Below, piece by piece: positions 8,062-55,781 of a DNA stretch of 64,000 nt (position 1 is its first letter; every line of letters begins with the position of its first letter). The notes beneath the pieces are model-generated. The model was not told where the DNA came from and did no database searches. It was given only the letters and a program-made list of their open reading frames with translations. The position numbers and the translations under genes were made by a program. The stretch is from Acidobacteria bacterium Mor1. Lineage in GTDB: Bacteria > Acidobacteriota > Polarisedimenticolia > Polarisedimenticolales > Polarisedimenticolaceae. The stretch is taken from positions 2,907,263 through 2,971,262 of the forward strand of contig CP011806.1 of the NCBI GenBank assembly GCA_001664505.1, read 5' to 3'.

Positions 8062-8120
8062 TCCCCAGGGCAAACAGGGCATCTTCAGACGGTCCAGATC
8101 CTGTCCATGGAGGGTTGGGG

Positions 8121-8549
8121 ATGCACGCGGTGCTCTACGTCCAGGCTGCCGCCACCCTGTTCATGACCGGTCTGATCTGGTTCGTCCAGTGGGTTCACTA
8201 CCCGCTGTTCGCCCGGGTCGGCTCGGGGTTCGAGGCCTATCAGGTGGAACACATGCGGCGAACCGGGTTCGTCGTCGGGCCACCGATGTTGGCCGAAGCG
8301 GCCGCGGCGGGCTGGATAGCCCTGTTTCCCCCGCCGGGGGTGCCCAGGGGCGCGGCCCTCGCGGGCCTCGGGCTCCTCGCCGCGATCTGGATCAGCACCT
8401 GGCTGTCCCAGGTCCCCAGCCACCGCCGGCTGTTGCAGAGCTTCGACGAAACCGCCCATCGACGGCTCGTCCGCTCCAACTGGGTACGCACCCTGGCATG
8501 GACGCTGCGCAGCCTTGTGGCGCTGTGGATGGTTGTCCAGGCGTCCTGA
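8121..8549 (+). CDS. Small four-helix membrane protein, divergent from carH
   Basis: 142 aa from ATG 8121 (AGGG 7 nt upstream). Four hydrophobic segments: residues about 3-24 (LYVQAAATLFMTGLIWFVQW), 53-70, 76-96 and 118-139. The loop after TM1 carries VHYPLFARVG, and a polar middle section carries QVPSHRRLLQSFDE and HRRLVRSNWVRT. I recognise no enzymatic motif; it resembles short uncharacterised membrane proteins of the DUF4149/DUF1772 size class. Its divergent placement next to a B12 photoreceptor regulator suggests light-controlled expression, so a role in photoprotection or pigment context is possible but unproven. Confidence 0.75.
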   Translation: MHAVLYVQAAATLFMTGLIWFVQWVHYPLFARVGSGFEAYQVEHMRRTGFVVGPPMLAEAAAAGWIALFPPPGVPRGAALAGLGLLAAIWISTWLSQVPSHRRLLQSFDETAHRRLVRSNWVRTLAWTLRSLVALWMVVQAS

Positions 8550-8610
8550 ACAAGCCGGTTTTCCGCGTCCATGCGTTATTTCACCGAAAAACCTGAGAAA
8601 TCCCATCTAT

Positions 8611-8635
8611 CTGCCCTATGGCCCCCATACGGCAG
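8611..8635. other. Inverted repeat / hairpin between membrane-protein gene and sigma-factor promoter
   Basis: CTGCCCTATGG-CCC-CCATACGGCAG has 11-nt arms with one mismatch. It sits 62 nt after the 8549 stop and 10 nt before the sigma promoter inverted repeat. There is no T-tract, so it may be an intrinsic barrier or an operator rather than a standard terminator. Confidence 0.45.
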
Positions 8636-8644
8636 AGCTATGTC

Positions 8645-8685
8645 TTGGACAAAACCTTGACATCCAGGTTTTGTACAGGTATATT
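8645..8685 (+). promoter_or_regulatory. Sigma-70 promoter overlapped by CarH-like inverted repeat, upstream of sigma factor
   Basis: TTGACA (8657-8662), 17-bp spacer, TATATT (8680-8685). The -35 box sits between the arms of GGACAAAACC (8647-8656) and GGTTTTGTAC (8667-8676), which match as an inverted repeat at 9 of 10 positions. The left arm includes TTGGACA as in the carH region. A repressor bound here would block the -35 box, as expected of a CarH/LitR tetramer in the dark. Confidence 0.7.
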
Positions 8686-8726
8686 CCGTGGTGTAGTTCA
8701 ACTCCAGAGGGCTCGAGGAGTTCGCG

Positions 8727-9896
8727 ATGCATCACTGGCCCCAACCAGAAAAAACCCGCGGGAGCTTTGCGCTCCCGAAAGTCGCTTCCAAAACCACCCC
8801 TGAGAAGAAGCAGGAGCGCCGTGCCGGCAGCGAGGAGAGTGGTGAGCAGGTGCTCAAACTCTACCTGCGCGACATGGGTCGCCACGCGTTGATCGACGCC
8901 ACCGAAGAGGTTCGCCTCGCCGGTGAGCTGCGCGCCGCTCGCGAAGGTATGGCCGCTCAGCTGAGACGGCTCCCTCGCGGAGTTCGCGATTCCCTGCTCG
9001 CGGGCACCGAACTGCCCGAGAAGGGAACCGACTGGCCTTTCGACAATGTCGAAGAGGTCTATCGCCGCTTCCGCTCTCAGGAAGCCTCCGAGCCTTCACT
9101 ACGCAAGCGCTCCCTGGCCATCCGCCGGGAGAAGCGGCGCCTGGACAACGCCCGGGAGGCGATGATCGTCGCCAACCTGCGCCTCGTCGTCCATATCGCC
9201 AAGCAATACCTGAACCGCGGCCTCCCTCTATCTGACCTCGTCCAGGACGGAAACCTGGGCCTGATGAAGGCGGTGGAGAAGTTCGAGCACGACCGCGGCA
9301 TCAAGTTCTCGACCTACGCCTACTGGTGGATCCGCCAGGCGATCGACCGCGGCCTGGCCGACAAGCGCCGCACGATTCGCATTCCGGTCCACCTCAACGA
9401 GCGCCGCAAGAAGATCGTGCGTGCGACCCGTGAACTCGGCCAGGATCTCGGCCGGCGTCCGTCCAACATCGAGATCGCTCGATGGTTGAAGATGCCCAAG
9501 GATCAGGTCGAGGAGATCAACAGCCTCGTCAGCGAACCCCTGAGCTTCGACGACCTTTCTCGTGCCGAGAACGGTCACGGCCTGCTGGAGACGATCAAGG
9601 ATCCCAAGGCCGCCCTCCAGGTCGAGAGCAGCGAAGCCCGTGAACTGCGCGAGAAACTGGAGGCTCCCCTCAGCTCGCTGAGCGAGCGGGAAGAGCGCAT
9701 CGTGCGCCTGCGCTTCGGCATCGGCAACGACACGACCCACACCCTCGAGGAAGTCGGCCGCATCATCGGCCTTTCCCGGGAGCGGGTCCGTCAGATCGAG
9801 GTCGAGGCGATCCAGAAGCTCCGGCGCTCCGACCTGCTGTCGGCGCTGGCGACCTCCCGGAGAAGCAAACTGGCCCAGGTCGCTGCCGGGGCCTGA
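8727..9896 (+). CDS. RNA polymerase sigma factor, sigma-70 family group 2 (RpoD/RpoS-like)
   Basis: 389-aa sigma factor, ATG 8727 with GAGGAG 6 nt upstream. Region 1.2 (LKLYLRDMGRHALIDATEEVRLAGEL, read in two parts), region 2 (ANLRLVVHIAKQYLNRGL, LVQDGNLGLMKAVEKFE, KFSTYAYWWIRQAIDRGL), region 3 (IRIPVHLNERRKKI) and region 4 (LEEVGRIIGLSRERVRQIEV) are all present. It lacks the long region 1.1 and non-conserved insert of a primary sigma, so it is probably an alternative group 2 factor. Its promoter carries a CarH-like operator, which points to light-controlled or photooxidative-stress transcription. Ends 105 nt before a good terminator. Confidence 0.93.
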   Translation: MHHWPQPEKTRGSFALPKVASKTTPEKKQERRAGSEESGEQVLKLYLRDMGRHALIDATEEVRLAGELRAAREGMAAQLRRLPRGVRDSLLAGTELPEKGTDWPFDNVEEVYRRFRSQEASEPSLRKRSLAIRREKRRLDNAREAMIVANLRLVVHIAKQYLNRGLPLSDLVQDGNLGLMKAVEKFEHDRGIKFSTYAYWWIRQAIDRGLADKRRTIRIPVHLNERRKKIVRATRELGQDLGRRPSNIEIARWLKMPKDQVEEINSLVSEPLSFDDLSRAENGHGLLETIKDPKAALQVESSEARELREKLEAPLSSLSEREERIVRLRFGIGNDTTHTLEEVGRIIGLSRERVRQIEVEAIQKLRRSDLLSALATSRRSKLAQVAAGA

Positions 9897-54698: not shown

Positions 54699-54766
54699 GG
54701 TGGCGGTATACTATCCAAAGTGTTGCGGATGGGCGATGTGCCCCGGAGTATTCCCTCCAGGAGAAG

Positions 54767-55186
54767 TTGTTGGACCCCTATCGCGTGTTCCTGACCCACG
54801 GGGGCGCCGACACCTGGCTAGCCCGGGAGACACTGAAGCCGAGGCTCGAAGAGTCGGGGGCCGAGGTGTTTCTCGATAATGTCAATTTGGAATACGGGGA
54901 CGATTTCCGAGAGATCATTCTCTCCGAACTACGTCGATGTGATGAGTTGCTCGCTCTGTTAACCCCATCGTCGATACGACGCCCGTGGGTCTATGCCGAG
55001 ATAGGGGCTATGGTTGTTCGCGAGCAAGGTGATCGCGTCATTGCCGTTCAATACGGCCCCGAAGAGCAGGAACTCCAGGAACTCGGCGTGCTTTCGCTAC
55101 TCGGAACGCGGACCCTGCTACCGCTAGACGACTTCGACACCTACCTGGCACAACTCAAAGGGCGCGTGGAGTCGAAGCATGCATGA
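54767..55186 (+). CDS. TIR-domain protein
   Basis: 139 aa from TTG 54767 (AGGAG 6 nt upstream; TTG 54770 also possible). A lone TIR domain: YRVFLTHGGADTWLARETLK, LEESGAEVFLDNVNLEYGDD, ELRRCDELLALLTPSSIRRP, then WVYAEIGAMV, in which Glu occupies the NADase catalytic position. Ends in a helical segment. Likely an NAD+-cleaving or signalling domain used in defence. Overlaps the next TIR gene by 8 nt. Codons such as gat, aat, ttg and gaa are more frequent than in flanking genes, suggesting transfer. Confidence 0.85.
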   Translation: MLDPYRVFLTHGGADTWLARETLKPRLEESGAEVFLDNVNLEYGDDFREIILSELRRCDELLALLTPSSIRRPWVYAEIGAMVVREQGDRVIAVQYGPEEQELQELGVLSLLGTRTLLPLDDFDTYLAQLKGRVESKHA

Positions 55187-55781
55187 TGTTTTCGTGTCCT
55201 ATTCGGGAGCCGACCACGACGCGGCCTCGGCTTTGGCAGATAGCCTGCGTCACGCAGGGTTCTCCACATTCTTCGACACCGAGGGCCTCGTCGCAGGCCT
55301 TGACTGGTCACAGGCGAGTCAGCGCGAGCTTGAGACATCCCGATCCGTGCTCGCGATACTCTCCACTCATTCGCAGCAGTCCATGATCGTACAGAGCGAG
55401 TTGAGGCGGGTCCTCCACCAGAAGAGACTCATCATCCCAGTGATGCTCGACGACGCCGCAACGGAAAATGCTATCTGGCCATTGCTGGCAGATCGCGCAG
55501 CCCTGCGGCTGGACGCTGCACCGCACTCTCGAGAATGGGACAACCAGGTAGAGGCAATCGTGTCCGCCGTGGCCCGCTCGCTGAGCCCCCCCTCCCCGCC
55601 GCCGACTTCGCCGTCAACAGCGCCGGCGCCCCAGTCCCCACGGTCAGAATCCAGCCCACCGCCGCGGAGCCTCCCACATAGTGCGGAGCGGAAAGGGGGT
55701 CTACGGCTTGGGCCAGGCTTTGTCATCGCTGTCCTGTCTGCGCTCGCCGGAGCAGCAGCGATGTGGTTGGCACTGAAGTAG
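55179..55781 (+). CDS. TIR-domain protein with C-terminal membrane anchor
   Basis: 200 aa, ATG 55179 inside the end of the first TIR gene. Residues 2-135 are TIR: HDVFVSYSGADHDAASALAD, HAGFSTFFDTEGLVAG, SRSVLAILSTHSQQS, then IVQSELRRVL with Glu at the catalytic position. A Pro/Ser linker (137-172) leads to a terminal helix FVIAVLSALAGAAAMWLALK, so it is tail-anchored with the TIR domain in the cytoplasm. With the soluble TIR gene it forms a coupled two-gene unit; membrane tethering could couple sensing to membrane damage. Confidence 0.87.
   Translation: MHDVFVSYSGADHDAASALADSLRHAGFSTFFDTEGLVAGLDWSQASQRELETSRSVLAILSTHSQQSMIVQSELRRVLHQKRLIIPVMLDDAATENAIWPLLADRAALRLDAAPHSREWDNQVEAIVSAVARSLSPPSPPPTSPSTAPAPQSPRSESSPPPRSLPHSAERKGGLRLGPGFVIAVLSALAGAAAMWLALK

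Follow-up and report, generated by a model that had tools for sequence, protein, structure and literature searches.

TIR enzymes become active on assembly, and control over them is usually exerted by a fused sensor or by a third protein. Type I Thoeris has a ThsA with STALD as its effector, and other Thoeris types have macro-domain (ThsA), TM- or caspase-type effectors. In staphylococcal Thoeris, the major head protein of the phage (capsid) is the binding partner of ThsB1, which recruits ThsB2; the latter makes gcADPR in a manner requiring its Glu and Phe, whereas mutants in the equivalent residues of ThsB1 stay immune; in the S. equinus system, the catalytic duty falls to ThsB1 instead (PMC12578639). 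The same text describes the role of this Phe and Glu pair in TIR NADases and records, for both Sau-Thoeris and Seq-Thoeris, that defence stays intact when one TIR of the two is mutated at its putative catalytic positions (PMC12578639). Outside Thoeris, the available text on the tirE1 and tirE2 genes of E. faecium states that they are not recent duplicates (PMC6304867), and DUF4062 proteins are reported to be TIR-like NADases and to constitute the Swarozyc defence (PMC13174449).

Against this background, two adjacent TIR genes, here called TIR1 and TIR2, were analysed in the window, by which we mean the whole 64,000-nucleotide stretch of DNA from Acidobacteria bacterium Mor1 under study (Table 1). 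The first-pass annotation had described the two genes as overlapping by 8 nt, and both the ORFs and the stretch they share were confirmed. The TIR1 ORF is open already from TTG 54767; the second TTG, at 54770, is judged from the sequence to be the likelier start, since it stands 6 nt from the putative ribosome-binding site AGGAG and the first TTG leaves a spacing of only 3 nt. Together, the overlap and the putative ribosome-binding site inside TIR1 imply that the translation of the two genes is coupled. The further claim that their codon use differs from that of the neighbours was borne out, GC3 being 0.655 in TIR1 and 0.697 in TIR2 when 34 long ORFs of the window, some of them wrong-frame shadows, have a median of 0.847; the few ORFs with a GC3 below that of the pair either look like shadows in the wrong frame or are situated where the window ends.

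Table 1. Features of the TIR1-TIR2 locus, in window coordinates.
Feature	Position	Strand	Basis or remark
TIR1 putative ribosome-binding site, AGGAG	54759..54763	+	Sequence reading; 6 nt before TTG 54770
TIR1 gene, 138 aa, soluble, TIR-only	54770..55186	+	Pfam TIR_2 E 1e-13; AlphaFold mean pLDDT 90.0
TIR2 putative ribosome-binding site, GGAG, within TIR1	55168..55171	+	Sequence reading
TIR1/TIR2 overlap, 8 nt, ATGCATGA (TIR2 start / TIR1 stop)	55179..55186	+	
TIR2 gene, 200 aa, putative C-terminal anchor	55179..55781	+	Pfam TIR_2 E 1.5e-21; AlphaFold mean pLDDT 81.7
TIR2 TIR domain, residues 1-135, Phe5/Glu74	55179..55583	+	Alignment, AlphaFold, structure comparison
TIR2 proline/serine-rich linker, residues 136-178	55584..55712	+	Low pLDDT
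TIR2 terminal hydrophobic helix, residues 179-199	55713..55775	+	Hydropathy 2.28; AlphaFold helix
DUF4062-NACHT-FGE gene, 993 aa	57649-60630	+	GC3 0.724; 1.9 kb downstream of the pair

Both proteins match Pfam TIR_2 above its curated cut-off of 28 bits (TIR1 52.3, TIR2 77.6), and AlphaFold gives both of them a TIR fold. The TIR1 model aligns with SPARTA (8ifl; Z 16.2, rmsd 2.2 over 125) and AbTir (7uxu; Z 14.5, rmsd 2.7 over 129), the TIR2 model with SARM1 (9mw2; Z 17.8, rmsd 2.2 over 125) and again AbTir (Z 15.8, rmsd 2.1 over 127). Among the fold matches of TIR1, however, nucleoside 2-deoxyribosyltransferases tie with TIRs (7o62; Z 15.6, rmsd 2.7 over 123), and because they score equally the fold of TIR1 is by itself no proof of activity. 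The Glu expected for NAD+ cleavage had been said to be kept in both proteins, and alignment agrees: the catalytic-type Glu of helix C is E77 in TIR1 and E74 in TIR2, the facing Phe of strand A is F7 and F5, respectively, and both columns are invariant in all nine aligned TIR1s and all nine aligned TIR2s. In the WxxxE motif, the window's TIR1 has the Trp and its TIR2 has Ile in that place. A conserved Glu does not prove activity either, since the Sau- and Seq-Thoeris mutants in one TIR still defend; we infer that TIR1-TIR2 cleaves NAD+ and confers protection.

Genome searches and a scan of the collection yielded ten distinct TIR1-type loci, the window included (G044 (= L020), G271 (= L017), L018, L019 in G397, L021 in G398, L022, L023, L024, G703 (= L079) and the window), the members being gathered by similarity to TIR1 alone, with pairing disregarded. 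Their record titles name Acidobacteria, Bryobacterales, Ardenticatenia/Chloroflexota, a proteobacterial MAG and candidate division KSB1, with the proviso that taxonomic assignments of MAGs may be wrong. At nine of these ten loci a second TIR gene follows TIR1 directly on the same strand, so that the objection that relatives might never carry both genes together falls away. The two genes overlap in the window, L020, L019 and L023 (by 8, 20, 8 and 4 nt, respectively) and are separated by 1 nt in L021, 8 nt in L024, 21 nt in L018, 25 nt in L017 and 28 nt in L022; the tenth locus, that of G703, has a strong TIR1 member without an adjacent TIR2 and continues with non-TIR ORFs. In a tree with long branches, flagged as such by the program, TIR1 forms a single clade of small TIRs (support 98/91), and this clade groups with eight of the TIR2s at 86/84, one control row falling within each half. 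Against a TIR1 profile trained without it, the window's TIR1 scores 129.4 bits, compared with 74.5 for the best non-member and a control median of 37.2, and the sole row ranked above it is the TIR1 of G044 itself, present twice. Moreover, in the eight pairs other than the window's, the distances among the TIR1s track those among the TIR2s (Mantel r 0.65, a value reached in 53 of 40,320 permutations), and they do so also when the window is included (r 0.62, reached in 118 of 40,320 random permutations). TIR1 and TIR2 therefore appear to be handed down together.

Could the adjacency be due to chance? A search of 149 genomes of the phylum with TIR_2 (PF13676) at E 1e-6 produced 109 matches, and for 10 of them another TIR lies on the same strand no more than 500 bp away; ordinary TIR genes are therefore seldom paired, and chance adjacency of TIR1 and TIR2 was rejected against this background. 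Four of these 10 matches are the window and G044 pairs themselves, and the other six comprise two matches in one 282-aa frame (G099), a TIR with a short TIR stretch (G109) and two adjacent TIR ORFs of the window's own genome. The TIR1 type occurs in 3 of 396 genomes of the window's own phylum, in none of the five other genomes of the window's own family that were searched, and in 1 of 398 genomes of the phylum of G398, namely G398 itself. In the phylum of G397, 11 of 400 genomes match at E 1e-15, the only strong matches being G397 (221 bits) and G703 (181 bits); the remaining 12 matches, at 59-67 bits, are TIRs of larger proteins and were rejected as extra members, and the flanking stretches examined beside them held no second TIR gene. 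Three of the ten contig-scan relatives (L025-L027; E 3e-9 to 9e-7) were likewise rejected, being TIRs that start ORFs of 1318-1512 aa. The phage, plasmid and viral-contig records searched contained no close relative, the weaker plasmid and phage matches covering 50-71% of the query. A viral contig of IMG/VR (L058) encodes a distant 374-aa TIR protein with 27% identity to TIR1, and the Methylorubrum plasmid locus L013 (pCMU01 55937-64233) carries three annotated TIR genes in 4.5 kb near a tyrosine recombinase.

The upstream neighbour of the window's pair, on the opposite strand, encodes an NhaP-type antiporter; downstream come an alpha/beta hydrolase gene and a C45-type one, and each of the three has a high GC3 (0.83-0.88). 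An operon with these flanking genes was rejected, as the antiporter and hydrolase lie apart in the family genomes that have both (G004, C77/C115; G002, C29/C76), and because they are not adjacent there, no clean empty site can be read. Most pairs sit among housekeeping-type genes, outside clear defence islands. No third gene is common to the nine paired loci within flanks of up to 5 kb (shorter on some sides), the candidates that came up and were dismissed being common ATPase, reductase and FGE-domain matches only. Further downstream in the window, the DUF4062-NACHT-FGE gene has a DUF4062 match of 22.5 bits, slightly under the cut-off of 24.7, and is matched by the PADLOC candidate PDC-S60 at 1.1e-28; it is likely to be a second TIR-like immune gene near the pair. 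A same-strand FGE-sulfatase-domain gene (L019:142-1167) ends 27 nt before TIR1 of L019, and FGE-domain genes are thus found near the pair both there and, 1.9 kb away, in the window. At L020 (G044; L061:3399-12371), the pair opens a longer TIR-rich run that includes a gene matching ThsB_TIR at 75.5 bits (cut-off 21.2), a SLOG cluster 2 gene with a sub-threshold TIR_2 match and more TIR genes. Elsewhere in the window's own genome, L059 (C1:1264000-1283000) is a cluster of TIR proteins, one of them of 782 aa, with ORF 8092-9111 among them; we take these to be pentapeptide-repeat/TIR proteins, the 782-aa one having a ParA/MinD-like N-terminus, and ORF 8092-9111 to be integrase-like.

The window's TIR2 had also been described as tethered to the membrane by a terminal helix. 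The helix is real by hydropathy, the best 19-residue mean being 2.28 from residue 181 when the 17 other proteins of the pairs peak at 1.70, and by AlphaFold, which models residues 179-199 as a helix with a pLDDT of about 82-83; it would place the protein in the membrane, and the basic residues directly N-terminal of it would fit a cytoplasmic TIR. The other eight partners are soluble proteins of 129-139 aa, so that a terminal helix occurs in one of nine pairs, the window's only, and a membrane partner was rejected as the defining trait of the pair. Of 58 control TIR ORFs, 8 have a strong hydrophobic stretch beyond their TIR, but none of the 58 is an uncut ORF with an N-terminal TIR in which such a stretch falls in the last 45 residues.

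Where, then, did this anchored partner come from? Against a profile of the usual partners trained without it, the window's TIR2 scores 55.2 bits and ranks 29 of 61, the control median being 50.4, whereas the other partners, each left out in turn, reach between 68.2 (L021) and 145.9 bits. The tree sets it among the controls, outside the TIR1+TIR2 group, and the TIRs that match it most closely in the phylum stand at the start of larger proteins, with 25-32% identity. Given this background-level score, the tree position and the nearest matches in larger proteins, the window's partner may have been swapped or cut down; replacement is favoured by the scores, though not proved, an AU test leaving a single clade of the window's TIR2 and the other TIR2s unrejected (p 0.198). 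Since this TIR2 is perhaps of other descent, the window's pair draws less direct support from the fact that the pairing is conserved. One could go further and regard this TIR2 as no true partner but as a TIR-linker-TM receptor that was cut down and came to lie next to TIR1, with loss of the original TIR2. The profile score and tree position would suit such a history, as would the commonness of TIR-linker-TM proteins among the controls (the 8 of 58 just mentioned), but we consider it rather unlikely, because the overlap and in-gene ribosome-binding site imply translational coupling, GC3 is similarly low in both genes and the AU test tolerates a single TIR2 clade.

TIR1-TIR2 is probably a rare, ThsA-less two-TIR module with a defensive role. 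The reading that we prefer, with a probability of roughly 0.5, is that of a compact, horizontally moving pair whose co-made TIRs assemble and respond to infection via NAD+, and which occurs here in an anchored form. Two different TIR domains made together would assemble with each other; sensing or scaffolding might be the main task of one of them and NAD+ cleavage that of the other, or the two might share a composite site, and assembly would lead to NAD+ depletion or to an ADP-ribose signal by which the infected cell is stopped. The division of labour would resemble that of staphylococcal Thoeris minus ThsA, with the assembled pair either using NAD+ directly or signalling to an effector that was not found. 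In the window, the tail-anchored TIR2 would bring the assembly to the inner membrane, where a membrane-bound event might act as the trigger. The rare and scattered occurrence and the low GC3 count in favour of a two-gene module; the unpaired locus of G703, the housekeeping-type neighbours, the lack of a close phage or plasmid relative in the records searched and the missing WxxxE Trp of the window's TIR2 count against it. It is conceivable, if still doubtful, that we are dealing with a hitherto unrecognised, self-contained immune module that needs no further component and joins a small conserved TIR to an exchangeable one, the tail anchor of the window having turned it into an inner-membrane hetero-TIR NADase in which the location of the partner sets the infection event that is sensed.

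Several other functions could be assigned to the two genes. They might form the signalling half of a Thoeris-like system, with the effector that receives their cyclic ADP-ribose signal encoded at some other place in the genome, and ThsB1/ThsB2 two-TIR operons do exist (PMC12578639). In PADLOC, where the pair gives partial TIR matches only, both proteins show weak matches to models of ThsB. Yet their ThsB_TIR (PF08937) scores of 15.1 and 12.5 bits are under the Pfam cut-off of 21.2, the ThcB4 Thoeris TIR model gives the window proteins 30.6 and 25.6 against a cut-off of 220, and their NCBIfam matches all stay far under the cut-offs. No STALD (ThsA) match exceeded the cut-off in any of nine genomes, the own one included, with one sub-threshold match in G397, and the adjoining genes offer no common effector; we regard such a role as unlikely.

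Alternatively, the two might work in the manner of a toxin-antitoxin pair, an NADase TIR being kept in check by a partner TIR of weak catalytic activity. Such an arrangement would agree with the tight coupling of two genes without a third one and with the Ile in place of the WxxxE Trp in the window's TIR2, but a pure inhibitor would not need the Phe and Glu that are invariant in both proteins of all nine pairs, and G703 tolerates a solo TIR1, which makes it quite improbable. A non-enzymatic TIR scaffold engaged in housekeeping or developmental signalling, to which the neighbours at most loci and the fold ties with non-NADase relatives such as the nucleoside 2-deoxyribosyltransferases could point, fits poorly with the conserved catalytic-type Phe and Glu, the scattered, rare occurrence and the low GC3, and we regard it as improbable.

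What would be learned if the preferred reading, a defensive pair of assembling TIRs, were true? A conserved pair of bare TIRs without another partner would reduce the control of one TIR by another to a minimal system, and would reveal what the second TIR contributes in Thoeris operons. The anchored TIR2 of the window would test whether membrane location alters what is sensed, and the conservation of the pairing across several phyla provides ready test constructs. Should the pair prove to have no such function, it would be a warning against equating TIR clusters with defence.

How does the pair compare with what has been described? The first-pass annotation did not recognise two-TIR operons with one membrane partner as any defence type familiar to it. 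A genuine two-TIR unit is upheld by the nine paired loci among ten; the membrane partner as a trait of the type is not, the anchor being confined to one of nine pairs and carried by a TIR2 that, at 55.2 bits, scores outside the usual partner subfamily. Nor are two-TIR operons new to defence, ThsB1/ThsB2 of Thoeris being known, though with ThsA (PMC12578639). The literature searched, which left most subscription journals outside its coverage, held no recognisable ThsA-less conserved two-TIR unit, and the available portions of two further sources describe no such TIR pair (PMC13142454; PMC7159879). The S. aureus thsA/thsB1/thsB2 operon, as far as the accessible text goes, resembles the window in having two different TIR genes per operon and a Phe and Glu site, but there ThsA is part of the operon and required, whereas here none of 9 genomes has a STALD match over the cut-off; that text mentions no TIR subunit anchored in the membrane, as the window's TIR2 would be (PMC12578639). 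The tirE1-hp1-tirE2 locus of E. faecium likewise comprises two co-transcribed TIR genes, on a mobile element, but in the part of the paper available it has a Sir2-like gene between the TIRs and is studied for virulence (PMC6304867). Likeness to the DUF4062 proteins of Swarozyc (PMC13174449, in part) belongs to the DUF4062-NACHT-FGE gene of the window, a separate single gene outside the TIR pair, with two genes between, one of them on the opposite strand. The control TIR-linker-TM proteins (such as L082, L089, L083, L087 and L084) share with TIR2 the order of TIR, linker and single hydrophobic stretch, but they extend beyond that stretch, whereas the window's TIR2 stops at it and has TIR1 as its partner. 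Operons with two TIR genes are already known; what is new is a unit of this kind without ThsA and, in the window, a second TIR with a tail anchor.
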